Assembly: GCA_002311635.1 (NCBI GenBank)
Contig: DBZJ01000137.1
Coordinates: 1-24,531, forward strand
Source of the DNA: Syntrophaceae bacterium UBA1163
Lineage (GTDB): Bacteria > Desulfobacterota > BSN033 > UBA1163
Direction: 5' to 3'
Length of the DNA stretch: 24,531 bases
The stretch's first letter is position 1. Each line of letters begins with the position of its first letter. Below, in pieces: positions 246 through 19,304 of the stretch. The notes under the pieces were generated by a model. It worked only from the letters and a program-made list of their open reading frames with translations, searched no databases and was not told where the DNA came from. Made by a program: the position numbers and the translations under genes.

Positions 246-464
246 TCATATCGCTTCTGCCATTTTTCTCAAGAGATCCAGGGTCTCCTTGGCTTCTTCT
301 TCATCCACCTTTTGAATGGCAAAGCCTGTATGGATGAGGACGTACTCCCCTACGGAAACATCGGGACAGAGATCGAGCGAGATGTCTCTCGAAACACCGC
401 CCACGTCCACCTTTGCCACATTCTTTTCGATCTCTATAATTTTTCCAGGTATTGCTAAGCACAT
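246..464 (-). CDS. hypC: HypC, hydrogenase maturation chaperone
   Basis: This 72-residue protein begins MCLAIPGKI, the HypC/HybG signature. Cys2 (after Met removal the N-terminal Cys) is the residue that binds the Fe(CN)2CO unit and the hydrogenase large-subunit precursor. The VDVGGV segment and the acidic helix at the end also fit the family, and the length is normal (70-90). Its ATG overlaps the end of hypF by 10 bp, indicating translational coupling. HypC partners with HypD, whose gene follows. It presumably chaperones the HysA precursor encoded upstream in the same operon. Confidence 0.95.
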   Translation of the reverse strand: MCLAIPGKIIEIEKNVAKVDVGGVSRDISLDLCPDVSVGEYVLIHTGFAIQKVDEEEAKETLDLLRKMAEAI

Positions 465-2728
465 TGAGATAACCTCATATGGGCAATCACCGCCTGTCCT
501 AAGGAGATGCCGCCGTCATTAGGGGGTACCAAATGGTGAGTATAGACATCGAACCCCGATCTCTTCAAACCCTCCGTGACAAGGGAGAGAAGAAAAATAT
601 TTTGAAAGACCCCTCCGCTTAAAACGACCCGATTCAACGCCTCCTTGGACCGGATTGTCTGACAGGTCTCGATGATCATGCGGGAGATGGTTTGGTGGAA
701 CTTTCCTGAGATCCTTGATGAAGGCACCCCATCTATCAAATCACGGACTATCCCTCGGATCATCTCTGCTGGGTCAATTACCATCGGCATTTCATCTCCA
801 TGGTTTTGGAAAGGATATTCTTCTTTTGCCCCGTGATCTGCAATCATTTCCAGCTCGATGGCTGCCTGTCCTTCATAGTGGACCTCGTCTCTTATGGAGA
901 GGAGTGACGAAATCGCATCGAAGAGGCGCCCCATGCTCGAGGTCAACGGACTGTTAACCTTCTGTTTAATCGCCCTCTTCAAGATGTCCCATTTTTGAGA
1001 ATCGATTCTTTTCATCAGGTCAATCTTCAGTTTGGTGGCTTGATCCCCAAAAGCATCAAAAAGGTAAACCATAGCCATCCGCCAGGGCTCTTTAATGGCC
1101 ATCGAGCCTCCGGGCATAGGGACTTTTTTCAGATGGGCCAATCGACCAAAATCTCTTAGATTGACCTTAATGAATTCACCTCCCCACACGGTACCATCCA
1201 CTCCAAAACCTGTTCCGTCCAGAGCCACTCCGATGACATCCCCCTCTACTCCATTTTCAGCCATTGCACTGACGATATGGGCGTGGTGATGTTGGACGCC
1301 GATTTTTGGAATATCTGGAATCGAGAGGGCATACTGGGTAGAGAGGTAATCCGGATGAAGATCATAAGCAACTGCCTTTGGCTCAATATAGAAAAGCTTT
1401 TTGAAGTGTTGGATTCCTTCTTCGAAAGAGGTGAGCGTTTCCAGATTCTCGAGGTCTCCGATGTGGTGACTCATGAAGGCGTATTGACCACGGGTCAGGC
1501 AAAAGGTGTTTTTCAGTTCCCCCCCACAGGCCAGGATCATTTCAAGCGGGAAAGAAAGTTTAATAGGGAAGGGGACATAACCTCTTGACCTTCGCAGGAT
1601 ATAAGGTTTCCCATCGAAGATTCTTGTCACAGAATCGTCGCACCTCATATGGATCTCGCGGTTGTGAAAGAGGAAATAATCGGCAATTTTGGAGAGACGG
1701 CCAAAGGCCTCTTCATTCTTATAAGAGATGGGTTCATCGCTCACATTGCCACTTGTCATCACCAATGTTTTGAGGGGACCGTTGAGGAGAAGGTGATGAA
1801 GGGGTGAGTAGGGGAGCATGACCCCAAGGGTATCCTGATAGGGAGCGACCGCATGCGCAACCGGAGAATTTCCCCTCCTTCTCAGAATGACAATGGGCCT
1901 TTCTACACTCAATAATAATTTTTCTTCTTCCTCGTTGGCTTCGCAGTGTTTCTTCACTTCGTCAATATTCTGGCACATCACCGCAAAGGGTTTATCTTCT
2001 CTAAACTTTCGAGACCTCAAAGAGGAGACAGCGTCTTGATTTCTTGCATCACATGCCAGATGAAATCCTCCAAGACCTTTGATCGCCGCAATCCTCCCTT
2101 CAGATAGCAGATCCAGGGTCTTCACAATCGGAACTCCAGGAACTTCTTTTCCCTCTCTATCTTCGAGATGAAGAGAAGGGCCACAGGCCGGGCAGGCATT
2201 CGGCTGGGCGTGAAACCGCCGGTCCAACGGGTCTTCATACTCCTTCTGACAGACAGGACACATGATGAAAGGGGCCATGGTTGTTTTATGGCGATCGTAA
2301 GGGATGTCCTGGATAATCGTGAACCTCGGTCCACAGAGGGTGCAATTGATGAAAGGATATCGATACCTAAAATTCGTCGGTGAGAAAAGCTCGGAAAGAC
2401 ATTGATCGCACGTGGCTACATCGGGAGAGATGAGGACAAATTTTTCTTGGGCTTCTTCACTCTTTCTGATTTCAAAAGTGGAGTATCCCAAAGGTTCGAG
2501 GTACTTTACTTCGAACGATTCAATCCGGGCTAATGGGGGTGCGAGTTTGGGGATGTCCTGAATGAACCGGTCAAGGTTTCCGTCTTCGCTTTCGGCATCG
2601 ATCAATACGCCCTTTTCATTATTGAGAACCCATCCTCGAACGAGGTGCTTTTGAGCTAAACTGTAGATAAAGGGTCTAAATCCGATTCCCTGGACGATTC
2701 CGGTGATCCCAATCTCAGCCCGTTTCAT
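455..2728 (-). CDS. hypF: HypF carbamoyltransferase
   Basis: HypF uses carbamoyl phosphate and ATP to make the thiocarboxamide on HypE that becomes the CN ligands of the hydrogenase active site. All expected domains are present in order. An acylphosphatase domain covers residues 1-90 (GIVQGIGFRPF). Zinc-finger cysteine pairs are at 107/110, 129/132, 157/160 and 179/182. A YrdC-like domain covers about 200-390 (IAAIKGLGGFHLACDA), and a Kae1-like domain runs from about 400 to the end, with HHHAH and ALDGTGFG. The length of 757 is typical. The start lies 9 bp after the stop of the protease gene and has only a weak ribosome-binding site, which suggests coupled translation. Confidence 0.97.
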   Translation of the reverse strand: MKRAEIGITGIVQGIGFRPFIYSLAQKHLVRGWVLNNEKGVLIDAESEDGNLDRFIQDIPKLAPPLARIESFEVKYLEPLGYSTFEIRKSEEAQEKFVLISPDVATCDQCLSELFSPTNFRYRYPFINCTLCGPRFTIIQDIPYDRHKTTMAPFIMCPVCQKEYEDPLDRRFHAQPNACPACGPSLHLEDREGKEVPGVPIVKTLDLLSEGRIAAIKGLGGFHLACDARNQDAVSSLRSRKFREDKPFAVMCQNIDEVKKHCEANEEEEKLLLSVERPIVILRRRGNSPVAHAVAPYQDTLGVMLPYSPLHHLLLNGPLKTLVMTSGNVSDEPISYKNEEAFGRLSKIADYFLFHNREIHMRCDDSVTRIFDGKPYILRRSRGYVPFPIKLSFPLEMILACGGELKNTFCLTRGQYAFMSHHIGDLENLETLTSFEEGIQHFKKLFYIEPKAVAYDLHPDYLSTQYALSIPDIPKIGVQHHHAHIVSAMAENGVEGDVIGVALDGTGFGVDGTVWGGEFIKVNLRDFGRLAHLKKVPMPGGSMAIKEPWRMAMVYLFDAFGDQATKLKIDLMKRIDSQKWDILKRAIKQKVNSPLTSSMGRLFDAISSLLSIRDEVHYEGQAAIELEMIADHGAKEEYPFQNHGDEMPMVIDPAEMIRGIVRDLIDGVPSSRISGKFHQTISRMIIETCQTIRSKEALNRVVLSGGVFQNIFLLSLVTEGLKRSGFDVYTHHLVPPNDGGISLGQAVIAHMRLSQCA

Positions 2729-2737
2729 AACTTAATT

Positions 2738-3181
2738 CTAACTTTCTTTCAAAACGGCTTCAATAATGGCTGGGATTTTACTTTTCACCTCGTCGCTCAA
2801 CTCCATGCCCCAGTCCAGGACTTTCGGTTCGACTCCAAAGATCACCGTATCCATTTCAAGTCCCTTCTTTTTTGCCATGTCCAGGGTCTCTATAAGGCCG
2901 ATCTCATGAAGAGAAATGGGACCGTCTTCGGCCGGCAGTAGATCTTCGGGCCGACACTTATAGATCGTGCCGGGGATTCCTCCTGCCTTCATCGCATCGA
3001 TGACGACCAACTTTCTCACCCCCTCCAAATATGAAATCAGATCCATAGTGGAGGTTCCGATATCGAGCAATTCAACGTGATCCGGAAGTTCCAACGCTTC
3101 CATCCTTTCGATCACATGGACACCAATGCCTTCGTCGCGGCGGAGAAGGTTCCCGATGCCAATAATTAAGATTTTACCCAT
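2738..3181 (-). CDS. Hydrogenase maturation endopeptidase (M52/HyaD-HycI family)
   Basis: This 147-residue protein belongs to the nickel-dependent proteases that remove the C-terminal tail of the hydrogenase large subunit after Ni insertion. The family motif GIGNLLRRDEGIGVH is at residues 8-22. The three expected metal ligands can be seen: Glu17 in the DEG motif, Asp62 in VIDAM and the His of SLHEIGL near residue 92. The likely substrate is the selenocysteine-containing HysA upstream, whose predicted cleavage would follow the last His of its DPULGCSVH motif. No clear Shine-Dalgarno precedes the ATG. The gene lies directly after a terminator-like hairpin, so its level may be lower than that of the structural genes. 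Confidence 0.93.
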   Translation of the reverse strand: MGKILIIGIGNLLRRDEGIGVHVIERMEALELPDHVELLDIGTSTMDLISYLEGVRKLVVIDAMKAGGIPGTIYKCRPEDLLPAEDGPISLHEIGLIETLDMAKKKGLEMDTVIFGVEPKVLDWGMELSDEVKSKIPAIIEAVLKES

Positions 3182-3200: not shown

Positions 3201-3237
3201 AAAATAAAGAGGCTGCTGGAATCAATCCAGCAGCCTC
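3201..3237 (-). terminator. Hairpin terminator after hysA
   Basis: A perfect 11-bp inverted repeat (GAGGCTGCTGG at 3209-3219, its complement at 3227-3237) with a 7-nt loop is followed, in the minus-strand direction, by TTTATTTTAC. This is a good rho-independent terminator for hysBA. The maturation genes follow on the same strand, so it probably acts as a partial attenuator that sets structural against accessory gene levels. The attenuator role is inference. Confidence 0.8.
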
Positions 3238-3262: not shown

Positions 3263-4741
3263 TTAAATTACTTTGAACTCATAGGCTTTCTTGGTTTCAG
3301 CGTGCAGCACGTGCACGGAGCAGCCCAGTCAGGGGTCAAAGGAACGAACGACCCGGACGATATTGAATGGGTTCTTGATGTCTGGAACGGGTGTTCCAAC
3401 AAGAGCCTCTTCAATCGGGCCCCGCTTGCCTTTATCATCCCTCGGAGAAGCATTCCAGATCGTGGCCGCCACCACCTGGTAATTATCGATCTTTTGATCC
3501 TTAATCGAAATCCAGTGTCCGAGGGCACCCCGTGGGGCTTCAGTCAGCCCGAACCCTTCTGCTTCCTTAGGAATCTCAACCTTCGTCCAGGAAGGAGCTC
3601 CTGGTTTGAGCTGATCGATCCATTTGTCCATGGCGTCAGCTACTAATTTGCACTCCTCAGCTCTTGCTGCAATTCTTCCAAGGATTGAAAAGGCTTTATC
3701 TCCAAGATCTCTGAAGCGAATTTCTTTACTCGAATCGACGCCCAGGAATTTGTTGGCGTTTTTACTTAATACGGGATTGGTCACCCACATTCTGGCAAGA
3801 GGTCCGCCTTCATGAGGAAGCTCCCGATACCTTGGGGCCTTGACATAAGAATAAGCGCCTTTCTTCTCAGGAACCCAGACGGTCTTCCCTTTGCTCGGAT
3901 GGAGTCCAGTGGTCGAGTCGTCATAGTTGGAGTACTTGACATACTCACGAATTTGAGTCTGATCCAGCGGGAGGTCCTTGCCCTGAGTGTAGGAACCCGG
4001 CTTAATGAGAAAGGTTTTTTCATCGTCGTCCAATGGGAATGCACCGAACGAGACGAAGTTTTTGCAGCCCACTCCCACACCGAAAAGATCCTTGTATGCT
4101 CCAGCCACAAGATAAACCGTGGGGAGGTAGGTCCCGTCGATGAACTCTTGGATCTCTTTGAGCCTCCATTTCAAGGAGACTATCTTATCCAAAGACGGAA
4201 TCTCGGTAGCTCCTCCTGCCACCATGCCGTAGGTAATGGGTGCTTTTCCTCCGAAGAGAGCAACCATCTGATGGCATTTCTGTTTGATGTCCAAGGCCTG
4301 AAGATACTGGCCAACCGCCACCTGATTCGTTTTAGGGTCAAGCCTGTAATCTCCTTCATATCGAGGGATGAAGGGTTGTGTATCAGGCCCCTTCACATAG
4401 TCAAGGGCGACCAAGTGGTAAAAGTGAAGGATGTGTGACATCAGGTAATCCGATCCGAAGATCAAATTCCTGATGATCCGGCCGTTGGTAGGCGGTTTAA
4501 CCTTAAAGGCATTTTCCAGACATCGGACCGAAGCTGTTCCGTGGGCAGTGGGGCAGACCCCGCAAATTCTTTGAGTAATCTGGGATGCATCTCTGGGGTC
4601 TCTTCCTCTCAGAATGTTTTCAATACCTCGGTACATGGTCCCCGATGATTTCGCATCGACTACCTTTCCGCCTTCCATATCCACCTCAATTTTGAGGTGA
4701 CCTTCAATTCGTGTTACCGGAGAAATCGTCAACTTTGTCAT
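3263..4741 (-). CDS. hysA: [NiFeSe] hydrogenase large subunit, selenoprotein (TGA = Sec471)
   Basis: This is the catalytic subunit of a periplasmic uptake-type hydrogenase. The N-terminal motif RICGVC gives Cys60 and Cys63 of the active site. At the C-terminus the frame reads RSFDP, then TGA at 3331-3329, then LGCSVH, followed by 15 residues (VLHAETKKAYEFKVI) and TAA at 3265-3263. With TGA read as selenocysteine the motif is DPUxxCxxH: Sec471 and Cys474 are the other two Ni/Fe ligands and His477 the expected maturation cleavage point. The precursor is 492 residues. A simple ORF call stops at the TGA and loses two essential ligands. I chose the ATG at 4741 because GGAGGAGGTGA lies 5 nt upstream; the ATG at 4759 lies before this ribosome-binding site. 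The gene is 17 bp after hysB. Confidence 0.95.
3301..3331 (-). promoter_or_regulatory. Selenocysteine codon with SECIS-like hairpin
   Basis: The Sec TGA is at 3331-3329. Eleven nucleotides later a perfect 6-bp stem (CGTGCA/TGCACG, 3317-3312 with 3306-3301) closes a 5-nt loop, CGTGC, that contains a GU. From memory, the 11-nt distance and GU-bearing loop match the E. coli fdhF SECIS, which SelB binds. The stem lies within codons for the conserved CSVH region, so its sequence is constrained by both RNA and protein. Confidence 0.8.
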
Positions 4742-4758
4742 CAATGTCACCTCCTCCA

Positions 4759-5676
4759 TTATCCTGTTGTTTTAACATAAAAAGGTGAAAAGTTATCCGG
4801 CCATCCCGGCTGCGTGCATCCTAAGCAGAGGGAGTTATGGACACACCAGTTGACATTGTTGTTCCATCCCCTCTTCCAGCAGTCTGCATAGGATTCGGGC
4901 CCTTTGCAACCCAGCTCCAGACGGCAGCCTACTTCTCCAAAAGATTTGGCAAACTTCTTTTCATCGTAGTAAGAACGGTAAGGACAGTTGTCGTGGACGA
5001 GGGTGCCATAAAACATTTTGGGTCGTCCGTCATCATCGAGTTCAGGAATCCCGAACAGGAGAGCGTGGGCGATGGTTCCCACGATCCAATCGGGATGGGG
5101 CGGACATCCTGGAATGTTAATGACCGGGGTCTTAACCGCCCTGCTTTTGAAGAAATCCCTTACGCTCTTCACGCCCGTGGGATTGGGCTCGGCTCCTGGA
5201 ATTCCACCGAAACCACATTGACCCAATGCCAACACCGCTGCCGCCCCTTTCCCTAAATACATGGTGAGATCGGTAAAAGGAACCTCCTTACCGCTTCTTT
5301 CTCCGGAAAGGCAGCACCTTCCCTCATTGGCTGTTTCAATTGCTCCTTCGGTCACGAGAAAGTATTTACCGTAGTTCTTGTCTGCGGTCTCCCACAGGTA
5401 ATCATAGGCCGTTTGTCCGGCCGAAGCCATCACGGTTTGATGGAATTTCAGGCTGATGATGTTTAGAAGCACTTCTGCAATGGTTGGATGGGTGGTATTC
5501 AGAAGAGAAACGGAACAGCCAGTACAGCCCGCCCCCTGAATCCACAGTACAGGCGGGTTTCCAGCGGCTGCCTTCTCTAACGCCGAAACGATTTCAGGGA
5601 GAAGACTCCCCGATACCGTTACTGCCACACCCGTTCCTGCAAAAACTTTCAAAAATTGCCTTCTGGTAATCGGCAT
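4759..5676 (-). CDS. hysB: [NiFeSe] hydrogenase small subunit, Tat-exported
   Basis: This subunit carries the three iron-sulfur clusters that move electrons between the active site and a periplasmic partner such as a c-type cytochrome. A twin-arginine signal (RRQFLK, residues 5-10) precedes a hydrophobic stretch to about residue 30. Probable proximal ligands are Cys51, Cys54, Cys154 and Cys191. Distal ligands are His228, Cys231, Cys251 and Cys257. Medial ligands are Cys266, Cys278, Cys284 and Cys287. Cys278, in NWC, replaces the Pro that leaves a [3Fe-4S] cluster in standard [NiFe] enzymes, so a medial [4Fe-4S] is predicted, as in known [NiFeSe] hydrogenases. No C-terminal membrane anchor exists, so the dimer should be soluble in the periplasm. 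A ribosome-binding site, AAGGGGTGA, precedes the ATG. Confidence 0.96.
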   Translation of the reverse strand: MPITRRQFLKVFAGTGVAVTVSGSLLPEIVSALEKAAAGNPPVLWIQGAGCTGCSVSLLNTTHPTIAEVLLNIISLKFHQTVMASAGQTAYDYLWETADKNYGKYFLVTEGAIETANEGRCCLSGERSGKEVPFTDLTMYLGKGAAAVLALGQCGFGGIPGAEPNPTGVKSVRDFFKSRAVKTPVINIPGCPPHPDWIVGTIAHALLFGIPELDDDGRPKMFYGTLVHDNCPYRSYYDEKKFAKSFGEVGCRLELGCKGPESYADCWKRGWNNNVNWCVHNSLCLGCTQPGWPDNFSPFYVKTTG

Positions 5677-7717: not shown

Positions 7718-8095
7718 ATGAAGAAGACGATCATTTTCACCCTCGTGCTTACCCTCGCTCTTGTAACCTTGGCCCTCGCCCTTGCCGATAAGACCAAGAT
7801 GACTGTAAAGGTGGGAGACCAACTCTACGTTTGTGGCTGTGGTGAAGGTTGTCCGTGTGACACGATGTCAAGAAACCCTGGCAAGTGCACCTGTGGGAAA
7901 GACCTGGTGAAAACAAAGGTGACGAAGGTTGAGGAGGGGAAAATTACGGTTGAGTCAAGGAAAAAGCCTTTCGTGAGCGTGGCGAAATATGTCTGCGATT
8001 GCGGCCCTGATTGTAAGTGCGACACAATCAGCCAGAATCCAGGTAATTGCACCTGCGGCAAAAAGATGGTGGAAGTAAAGGCAAAGGGTAAATAA
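7718..8095 (+). CDS. Secreted cysteine-rich protein with two HMBD-like metal-binding repeats
   Basis: The 125-residue protein has a signal peptide (about residues 1-23, ending ALALA). The rest is two copies, near residues 37-66 and 91-120, of a unit reading YVCxCGxxCxCDTxSxNPGxCTCGKxxV. The ...PGxCxCGKxLV half is like the heavy-metal-binding domain found in copper efflux proteins (YxCPMHPxxxxxxPGxCPxCGMxL), but the CPMHP part is replaced by a CxCGxxCxC cluster. Each repeat has six cysteines and could bind a soft metal ion in the periplasm. The two repeats are joined by a Lys/Val-rich segment. The gene has its own strong promoter, ribosome-binding site and terminator, so it may be highly expressed or regulated. 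Its function is otherwise unknown. Confidence 0.8.
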   Translation: MKKTIIFTLVLTLALVTLALALADKTKMTVKVGDQLYVCGCGEGCPCDTMSRNPGKCTCGKDLVKTKVTKVEEGKITVESRKKPFVSVAKYVCDCGPDCKCDTISQNPGNCTCGKKMVEVKAKGK

Positions 8096-16097: not shown

Positions 16098-19000
16098 TCA
16101 CTCTCGTTGAGACCCGTCTCTTAAGAGGTTAGCCAAATCTTCTCTCGTATAGCTGTCTTTTATTCCTGGTTTTGAAAGCAGATATTTCACAATATCGTCA
16201 GGGGTTACTGGGTATACCTCTTTCAATCCGGAAAGGATGGCCTGCAGGTATTCGGGCGAGGGCGCAACAGGGGGCTCCAAGGCAATATTCTTTCCAGAGG
16301 TGAACGTGTAAATGGGGAAACCATCTCGTTCCCCCAGGTAGAGGATATTTCCGTACCATGACTCATGAAAGACCATCGAGCCTTGTTGTTTGACTTTCTG
16401 TAAATCCACGGAGATTTTTGCTCCCTCGTTTTCCTGGCTCAGCACATCGACGAATTGTTGTTCTGTGATGAGATACATCCTGCCCAGCGTGGCTTCGGTT
16501 TCTTCTTTTTTGAGTCCGATGAAAGCGACACCCTTATTGCTCCATCCGGAGGATTGTCTGGCGAAATATAATGGATAAGGGATCTTTATCGGTTGATCGT
16601 CTTTCGGAGGTGTTTTGTCACGGCAGCCGGAATGTGGCCTGGAGGCGCCTTCGGGCTGTCCGCCTTCGATGTAGCACATGAATCTCCGACTGCACAGGTT
16701 CGATCCATAACTTGCGTACCAGACGAGATTCGTCAAAGACAAGAAGCGCTCATCGTTTCTTAAATTTGCAAAGTCTTCTTCCTCTTTCGCTTCCAAAGCT
16801 CTGTTCTTGTCGATCTGTATCGCCTTGTAAAGGCTTTCCAGGGCCGCATCGGTATAACCCATTCTCGCTTCAAAGCAGGCCTTGTTATACCACCCCGTCG
16901 CATTATTTCTGTTGATCTGAACGATACTATCCCAGCATCTTATCCCTTCTTCATACCTGCCCAACTTAGAAAGTGCCAGCCCCTTAAGAATAAGGGCGTC
17001 GATGTTCGTCCATTCCTTATCCAGAACGGCATCCAGAGAAGTCAAGGCTTCCTCGTAACGTCCTGAGCTCAATAAAACCTGTCCCTTGGCCAATAAGGCG
17101 ACGATGTCCTCCGGATCCATTCGTAAGGCTTCATCCAAACAAGATAACGCGTCATCGTATCTGCCAAGGTTGAAAAGGGCGAGCCCCTTCACACCGAGCA
17201 ATGGATGGTTGACGGGATTAACCTTCAGCGATTTATTCGCAGCCTCTACGGCCTCTTCGTACCTCCCAAGATTGGACAGCGCCCTGGCCTGGCGATCCCA
17301 AAGGCTGGAATCTTCCGGATCGATTTCTGAGGCTTTCCGCAACAAGTCCAAAGCCTCCTCGTTTCTTCCCAGGTTGACCAAAATGGTACCTTTCATCTTT
17401 AGGGCGTCTGCCGAGTTGCGGTGTAGCCCCAACGCCTGGTCGACGTACTGCAGGGCCTCATCGTATTTTTTGGCATCTGAGAATATCTCGGCCTTGTCGA
17501 TCCACGGCAGTTCAAAGGAGGGATTTATCTCTATGGCTTTGTCCAAACATTCCAAAGCTTCCTTCATTTTGCCCTGCTTCAACAATCCCGCTCCTTTGTT
17601 GTGCCATGTGATCTCATCTTCAAGGTGAATTTTATATCCTAAGAAATTCAGTTTATCCTCCAGGGCTTTCAGGCGGTTTCGGAACCTTTCCTTATCTTCC
17701 TCCTTTTGAAACTTGACCTGGGTGACAAAACCTTGTTTCATCCATTCTATGTTTATTCGGTATCGGAGCGAGTGGGGTACTCCGAGATAGAATCCATTTC
17801 TCGACTCAGGAGATATTTCGAGAAGGGTGTGTGGTTCAGGAGGCAAGTTTGGAACTCGCGATCCGATAATAAATGTTTCAGTTTTTTCTCCTTTGACTTT
17901 TTCTTTCTTATCCAATCTTGTCTGGATGTAATATTCCGGGAAATCTTTAAGAAAGATCGTGTCGGTCAGCTTGCGATATAAAATGAAAATGGGATCTTCT
18001 GATAAGCTCATGGAGAACGCTTCCGTATCCATTACCCCTTTTGAGGCGCACAGATATTTTAGGTACAGCACGTCGAACGGGCTCCCATTGAAGCACAGCC
18101 CGGCATCCTCTTCGGATAAGACGCGATCTTTTTTAAGCTGTTCGATGGAGCTCCTCGCGATCGATTTTTTCCGGCGGATTTCTTTCGGCCCAGCGTCAAC
18201 TCCCTCGAGTAACATGAATTCAGAAAGCCATTCTCTTGAGACGTTTGGAAATTCAAGCAAAGATATCAAAACCTTCAGGAGGTCTGACCCATACCCTCTC
18301 ATCTTGTTGGCCACTCGGTATCGCCCGGATTTCCTTAATCCGTCGATTTCTTTTAAAACCTCATCCCACACCGCAGGAGACAGGGCGATCTTGGAATTTT
18401 TCCCATCTTTCCATTTACGGTACATATGATGGGCGATCAGGTTTATCTCATACGGGGCGCCGTTGGTGATCGCATGGATGTCGCCGATGTATGCCCGGTC
18501 AAAAGCTCTCTTTTCCTTATCGGCAATGGGTTTGAGCAGGCATTCTTCCGTCTCTTTCACGTTCTTGAAGTTCTCAACATCGATTCTTTTGAAAAACATG
18601 GGGACGGGTGAAAAGATGTCGCTGAGAGGGAGCCAAGTGTTTTCCGGGCCGGAGACGACTAAAACATAGCCTTCCACTTCCGTAAAAACATTTCTTATTT
18701 TCTCTAAGAGAACGTCATTCTGCGCCAACAAGTCACACTCGTCAAAAAGCAAGACAATGGTTGGAATACGCCGTTTCCGGGCTTCCTTATGGATCTCTTT
18801 TAAATCATGGAGGAGAACCTTTTGAGGCATTCCTCTGCTCTTTCTTTTCTTAAATCCTATATAGGCGCTGCCGTGCAGAAAAGGGATCTTCGTTTCGGCC
18901 TTGGTGTCGAGTCTGTCAACCACTTTCCGATAGGCTCTGTAAACGGTACCGGTTGTCCCTCCATAGAGCCCCTTTTCTGCACCAGCCGTGATGATTCCGT

Positions 19001-19304
19001 CGAAGACTTCCTTGAAAAATACAACATCGTTCTGCACCGCTTCCTTATTGAGCGGGATTTTTACGGCAAGGCACCTCAGATCATTTGCCATATGTTCGAT
19101 GATGTTGAGAAGGCTCGTTTTGCCGGCGGTTCGTGGGCCGACAAGGGCGAGGTGAAAATATTTAGGTTTTTCACCTTTGGAAAGCTTCAAATAGTATTCT
19201 ATCTCTTCGAGCTCGGCATGCCTCCCGGCAAAAAGTGCCGGGTCTCTGATCGGGCTCATGAAGTCGTACGGGTTATGATATTTTTTTTGTCCTGCATTCA
19301 TCAT
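16098..19304 (-). CDS. Large fusion protein: P-loop ATPase, TPR array, gamma-glutamylcyclotransferase-like domain
   Basis: The 1068-residue protein has three parts. An N-terminal AAA_16/STAND- or Cdc6-like ATPase contains Walker A GPRTAGKTS (56-64) and Walker B IVLLFDECD (183-191), followed by a probable winged-helix segment (about 335-420). After an uncharacterised region (420-560), about eight TPRs run from 567 to 836, many with LGRYEEAL-type cores. The C-terminus begins WYASYGSNL (862-870), a gamma-glutamylcyclotransferase-like signature, and continues with a GCRDKTPP segment. No signal or membrane segment is seen, so it is cytoplasmic. The combination resembles signal-sensing STAND proteins, some of which act in phage defence, but the usual effector-NTPase-sensor order is not kept. 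The function is unknown. The ATG is preceded by GGGAGAAG. Confidence 0.85.
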   Translation of the reverse strand: MMNAGQKKYHNPYDFMSPIRDPALFAGRHAELEEIEYYLKLSKGEKPKYFHLALVGPRTAGKTSLLNIIEHMANDLRCLAVKIPLNKEAVQNDVVFFKEVFDGIITAGAEKGLYGGTTGTVYRAYRKVVDRLDTKAETKIPFLHGSAYIGFKKRKSRGMPQKVLLHDLKEIHKEARKRRIPTIVLLFDECDLLAQNDVLLEKIRNVFTEVEGYVLVVSGPENTWLPLSDIFSPVPMFFKRIDVENFKNVKETEECLLKPIADKEKRAFDRAYIGDIHAITNGAPYEINLIAHHMYRKWKDGKNSKIALSPAVWDEVLKEIDGLRKSGRYRVANKMRGYGSDLLKVLISLLEFPNVSREWLSEFMLLEGVDAGPKEIRRKKSIARSSIEQLKKDRVLSEEDAGLCFNGSPFDVLYLKYLCASKGVMDTEAFSMSLSEDPIFILYRKLTDTIFLKDFPEYYIQTRLDKKEKVKGEKTETFIIGSRVPNLPPEPHTLLEISPESRNGFYLGVPHSLRYRINIEWMKQGFVTQVKFQKEEDKERFRNRLKALEDKLNFLGYKIHLEDEITWHNKGAGLLKQGKMKEALECLDKAIEINPSFELPWIDKAEIFSDAKKYDEALQYVDQALGLHRNSADALKMKGTILVNLGRNEEALDLLRKASEIDPEDSSLWDRQARALSNLGRYEEAVEAANKSLKVNPVNHPLLGVKGLALFNLGRYDDALSCLDEALRMDPEDIVALLAKGQVLLSSGRYEEALTSLDAVLDKEWTNIDALILKGLALSKLGRYEEGIRCWDSIVQINRNNATGWYNKACFEARMGYTDAALESLYKAIQIDKNRALEAKEEEDFANLRNDERFLSLTNLVWYASYGSNLCSRRFMCYIEGGQPEGASRPHSGCRDKTPPKDDQPIKIPYPLYFARQSSGWSNKGVAFIGLKKEETEATLGRMYLITEQQFVDVLSQENEGAKISVDLQKVKQQGSMVFHESWYGNILYLGERDGFPIYTFTSGKNIALEPPVAPSPEYLQAILSGLKEVYPVTPDDIVKYLLSKPGIKDSYTREDLANLLRDGSQRE

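Follow-up and report, generated by a model that had tools for sequence, protein, structure and literature searches.

The question raised by this locus is whether a hydrogenase large subunit ends at an in-frame TGA, or whether that codon is read as selenocysteine (Sec) and translation continues beyond it. The gene lies in a window of 24,531 nucleotides, the whole stretch of DNA that was analysed, which is contig C46 of a draft genome of 4.08 Mb in 248 contigs that is 90.58% complete. It is almost certainly hysA of a periplasmic [NiFeSe] hydrogenase, with Sec inserted at the UGA, the C-terminal tail cleaved and the product exported with the small subunit. The enzyme is otherwise an ordinary [NiFeSe] hydrogenase, spotted correctly in the preliminary description of this DNA, and it adds a likely Sec enzyme to an uncultured lineage.

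The hysA reading frame and its solved relatives

Under translation table 11, the ORF at 4759..3329 on the minus strand terminates in ...VVRSFDP at the TGA, the ordinary call ending at RSFDP that had been noted earlier. With TGA translated as U, the frame continues as ULGCSVHVLHAETKKAYEFKVI to a TAA at 3265..3263 (-), which restores DPULGCSVH and the 15-residue tail as had been claimed. The coordinates first given for the gene are correct, and the strand, left unstated there, is the minus strand. A start at 4741 is preferable to the 4759 of the ORF list, since GGAGGAGGTGA lies just 5′ of it and an in-frame stop directly precedes the same Met in two relatives (L023 and L024). The features of the locus are collected in Table 1.

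Table 1. Features of the hydrogenase locus, with positions in the window.
Feature	Position	Strand	Evidence
hysA, [NiFeSe] hydrogenase large subunit, 492 residues, Sec at 471	3263..4741	-	Translation with TGA as U; NF033181; PF00374; Shine-Dalgarno-like GGAGGAGGTGA
TGA codon, in all probability read as Sec, the Ni ligand of DPUxxC	3329..3331	-	TGA at the site in 29 distinct relatives, own gene counted; TGC/TGT in 65
15-residue C-terminal tail VLHAETKKAYEFKVI after His477, cleavage expected	3266..3310	-	Translation; kept in relatives; 4kl8 and 1cc1 chains stop at the equivalent His
Hairpin CGUGCA-CGUGC-UGCACG, proposed bacterial SECIS	3301..3317	-	Nucleotides 15-31 from the U of UGA; six pairs, comparative
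hysB, small subunit, twin-arginine signal RRQFLK	4759..5676	-	TIGR00391, 243.6 bits (cut-off 179.5)
Hydrogenase maturation protease, HycI/HupD-type	2738..3181	-	TIGR00072, 143.6 bits (cut-off 47.45); PF01750
hypF, carbamoyltransferase for active-site ligands	455..2728	-	TIGR00143, 810.4 bits (cut-off 466.1)

The HysA protein carries RICGVC and, with the TGA codon, DPULGC, which at the level of sequence correspond to the two Ni-binding motifs, RxCxxC close to the N-terminus and DPUxxC, led by Sec, at the C-terminus. It scores 690.8 bits against NF033181 (NiFeSe_hydrog, cut-off 600) and 449.4 bits, over the cut-off, against PF00374. Its best-scoring model is the NCBI exception model NF045518 (HysA), at 744.9 bits under a cut-off of 780, and the protein is not to be filed under that narrow name.

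In a search of solved structures with the large subunit, the first eleven entries listed are [NiFeSe] enzymes with 646-610 bits, followed by a chain with 379. When aligned with HysA, 4kl8 and 1cc1, which are taken here to be the [NiFeSe] hydrogenase of Desulfomicrobium baculatum, show an X at the Sec column. This X is read here as Sec. Both chains finish at the His where the tail of HysA begins. The chain of 5jsu, presumably like 2wpn the [NiFeSe] hydrogenase of Desulfovibrio vulgaris, retains the start of the tail and is aligned with HysA through HVLHAE. The alignment that had been proposed as a check agrees with the [NiFeSe] C-terminus that had been claimed.

The enzymes of these two species are the best-scoring solved relatives of both subunits and have the DPxLGC-VH motif and the tail start in common with HysA. 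Periplasmic Cys-containing [NiFe] hydrogenases share the PF00374 fold family and the principle of a cleaved tail, but contain Cys where HysA has Sec, and the best solved one reaches 379 bits against 610-646 for the [NiFeSe] chains. The motif region also matches VhuU (NF041786), the separate Sec subunit of a methanogen hydrogenase, at 22.4 bits. This score is under the model's cut-off of 70, and VhuU is a small subunit of its own (model length 45), whereas the motif of HysA lies within one large subunit.

That the TGA is a true stop, leaving a truncated subunit as a recent pseudogene or as a functional truncation, is very improbable. The ordinary ORF call does end there, and 108 of 120 listed homologues (from 7969 matches) are likewise recorded as ending at the DP preceding the codon, 104 of them in R-x-[FYH]-DP and four in other ...DP ends (P0103, P0112, P0119, P0120). 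Such a truncated protein would, however, be without two Ni ligands, and the frame, motif and tail past the TGA persist at an overall identity of 84% and also in less closely related genomes. The presence of Sec machinery in the host genome also speaks against a stop. Since conservation of the protein sequence extends to either side of the TGA in the four relatives aligned with it, a chance origin of the open frame beyond it is unreasonable.

The remaining listed homologues are eleven full-length Cys proteins and one that ends otherwise (P0073). In the DP-ending records a TGA presumably follows the DP, and their number shows how often near relatives are recorded without the active-site end. Gene-finding programs tend to shorten such enzymes at UGA, and the enzyme type itself is known. 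The earlier label of a 'hidden selenoprotein' is therefore apt as regards gene calling in these records, and does not hold as the announcement of a new kind of protein.

Sec machinery and the use of UGA in the host

It had been predicted that SelA, SelB, SelC and SelD would be encoded in the organism outside the window. All four were found in the host draft, with no listed match on C46. Family cut-offs are exceeded by selA (643 bits, contig C11), selB (364 bits, contig C93) and selD (386 bits, contig C76). The tRNA-Sec, also on C11, scores 81.4 bits, over the cut-off of a search (RF01852) that is not fully specific, as 5 of 14 control genomes also exceed it. ARAGORN likewise calls this tRNA SeC, with the anticodon TCA. 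Together with the alignment to solved [NiFeSe] subunits, this machinery supports the reading of the TGA as a probable Sec codon.

Further in-frame TGA codons occur in the host. The selD frame holds one, giving ...KKAGUASK..., and adjoins a gene (L018, 2530-3120, minus strand) labelled here, by assumption, as a YedF-like sulfurtransferase. One TGA also lies in the top-scoring formate dehydrogenase match, which at 902.6 bits exceeds the cut-off, and a weaker match under the cut-off likewise contains a TGA.

Reassignment of UGA throughout the genome to a different amino acid would be compatible with an open frame taken alone, and nothing else was found in its favour. It is already contradicted by the window, where TGA ends 9 of the 20 ORFs picked and labelled here as genes; UGA is otherwise a normal stop in this host. 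Against reassignment there is also the tRNA called tRNA-SeC from its TCA anticodon, and the Cys found at the corresponding residue of relatives that lack Sec. In each of the relatives L130 and L140, a single hysA gene has TGA both as the Sec codon and as the stop at its end. The probability left to this explanation is negligible.

For the preferred reading, Sec at the UGA, the following course may be proposed. SelB with Sec-tRNA(Sec) would bind the hairpin just after the UGA, Sec would be inserted as the nickel ligand of the DPUxxC motif, and translation would proceed to the TAA. The NiFe site would be assembled by Hyp proteins, including the HypF encoded downstream, after which the downstream-encoded protease would cut off the last 15 residues following His477. 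The large subunit would be exported together with the Tat-signal small subunit, and H2 would be taken up or released.

Sec and Cys codons and the hairpin among relatives

Matches to HysA at 1e-60 or better were found in 22 of 59 genomes searched, and at 1e-130 in 13 of 395 genomes of the phylum, the own genome being included in both counts. The four other matches at 65-84% identity, L023-L026, align along almost the full length, and in each of them the codon is TGA. A readable DPx..C motif was present in 84 of the 108 loci L022-L129, the other 24 being dropped, and in nine of the loci L130-L140 (L132 and L137 being without it). Pooling and removal of duplicates left 29 TGA and 65 Cys (TGC/TGT) sequences; a tail longer than eight residues is present in 54 of the Cys set. 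Within the own family three genomes retain both the TGA and the tail, as do eight elsewhere in the phylum; the genomes outside the family with TGA at the codon are G038, G059, G075, G094, G126, G131, G159 and G204. A sequencing or assembly error that changed TGC or TGT to TGA might be considered in a draft of 248 contigs, but 28 further distinct relatives, taken from separate assemblies, have TGA at this codon too, and such an error is scarcely credible.

A search for selA covered the genomes of 50 loci out of the 80 that are named. The gene is over the cut-off in 16 of 17 TGA genomes versus 17 of 30 Cys genomes, the other three being without a codon call. The sole TGA genome without selA over the cut-off is that of L050 (2.5 Mb). 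A periplasmic [NiFeSe] hydrogenase is named in the consulted portion of a paper on Thermacetogenium (PMC6895022), and in an extract of another the hydrogenase of Syntrophaceticus schinkii is compared with the D. vulgaris [NiFeSe] enzyme (PMC5113046). The codon is TGC in the gene of Thermacetogenium sp. (L071) and TGT in that of S. schinkii (L083). Ten large subunits have no tail and end exactly at the conserved His (L030, L049, L078, L107, L116, L120, L122, L123, L127, L128).

The stretch directly after the UGA is predicted, on statistical and comparative grounds, to form a SECIS-like hairpin. All six of its pairs, between nucleotides 15-20 and 26-31, are present in 26 of the 29 TGA genes, the others being L139 (five pairs), L118 (four) and L064 (two). 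None of the 54 tailed Cys genes has the complete hairpin; four of them reach five pairs. In 20 aligned Sec sequences all 120 of 120 pair cells are standard, compared with 91.8% in shuffles, and one pair occurs as C-G in 11 sequences and as G-C in the other nine. This two-sided change may go back to a single event within one clade, many of the sequences being close kin, and two of five covariation measures applied to these 20 sequences were not above shuffles. Single-sequence folding of the stretch after the UGA was no better than shuffles (z -0.48 and z -0.71). At Rfam gathering scores the window gave no SECIS-type match and only a tRNA.

In a tree of 86 rows, 25 of them Sec, hysA falls within a clade of 25 rows with support 100/99. 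This clade contains 23 Sec rows and two Cys rows, L136 and L138; four of the 29 TGA sequences (L134, L135, L139, L140) are not in the tree. Given the starred branches, no fewer than four label changes are required. Two genomes encode both Sec and Cys large subunits, L139 and L136 in G094 and L134 and L138 in G204, and the hairpin present in the Sec copies is absent from the Cys copies. The position of these Cys copies inside the Sec clade, together with their lack of the hairpin, suggests a Sec-to-Cys reversion after duplication. Two large subunits that fall outside the main Sec clade have TGA at this codon as well: L064, from Ammonifex sp. (Bacillota), and L118, from Candidatus Subteraquimicrobium (Actinomycetota). 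Their hairpins differ, and selA is present in both genomes.

The host, the operon and neighbouring genes

The glutamyl-tRNA synthetase of the window is 93% identical to that of a Thermodesulfobacteriota bacterium and 80% to those of Deltaproteobacteria RBG genomes, among the few named matches listed. In the 90.58% complete host draft there is no dsrA match and no aprA over the cut-off. Across 17 genomes searched, dsrA is over the cut-off in nine and aprA in six. Thirteen of the 17 carry the hydrogenase, eight with dsrA, six with aprA and five with neither over the cut-off (G000, G006, G013, G131, G185), although G131 is 76% and G185 86% complete and G013 has a 21-bit dsrA match. The own family has 17 genomes among the 59 searched for HysA, and eight of these family members were covered by the dsrA and aprA searches; aprA is over the cut-off in none of the eight and dsrA in two, G002, which is without this hydrogenase, and G009, which has it.

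The excerpt seen of a 2026 review places [NiFeSe] enzymes exclusively in sulfate reducers and methanogens (PMC13188914), and the part consulted of a 2016 paper in a few sulphate-reducing deltaproteobacteria (PMC4730141). The chances are evenly balanced that the uncultured, Thermodesulfobacteriota-like lineage served by this enzyme is one without sulfate respiration, the range of Sec hydrogenases then extending beyond those groups, and that Sec has been gained or lost more than once. Repeated gain or loss is suggested by the lone Sec codons in the Bacillota (L064) and Actinomycetota (L118) records. The presence of dsrA in two other genomes of the own family, G002 and G009, counts slightly against the combined reading. 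A host without sulfate respiration is a lead and not a result, as missing contigs and sulfite respiration are possible. Should sulfate respiration truly be absent from the host, [NiFeSe] enzymes have a wider range than is stated in that excerpt of the 2026 review (PMC13188914).

The genes are ordered hysB-hysA-protease-hypF on the minus strand, and the protease placed on the same operon by the preliminary description is the HycI/HupD-type gene downstream of hysA. Among solved structures the hysB product is closest to 1cc1_S, 4kl8_S and 2wpn_A, all [NiFeSe] small subunits. It scores 415.8 bits against the [NiFeSe] small-subunit model NF045520, under the cut-off of 470, and the protease scores 120.8 bits against the companion model NF045519, under 190. 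As far as the available section of one source shows, the D. baculatum operon consists of the two structural genes and a protease gene, as here (PMC10362691). Differences from the D. baculatum and D. vulgaris systems are that hysA, hysB and the protease here fall under the narrow NCBI model cut-offs, that hypF comes after the protease, and that the host is of an uncultured lineage whose draft is without dsrA and aprA over the cut-off.

Past the hysA stop and ahead of the protease gene, at 3209-3237 (-), lies a terminator-like hairpin that has a perfect 12-bp stem and a T-rich tail. A strong hairpin past the hysA stop was also present, with varying sequence, in all seven relatives inspected. It may lower the expression of the protease and hypF relative to the structural genes.

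Elsewhere in the window, 7718-8095 (+) encodes a small protein that looks secreted and contains two Cys-rich CGCGxGCxCDT-like repeats. It gave no Pfam match, and an ExtJ match of 22.8 bits is under the cut-off of 52.5. A 1068-residue protein encoded at 16098-19304 (-) has many TPR repeats after an N-terminal part that is ATPase-like, as judged here from its sequence.
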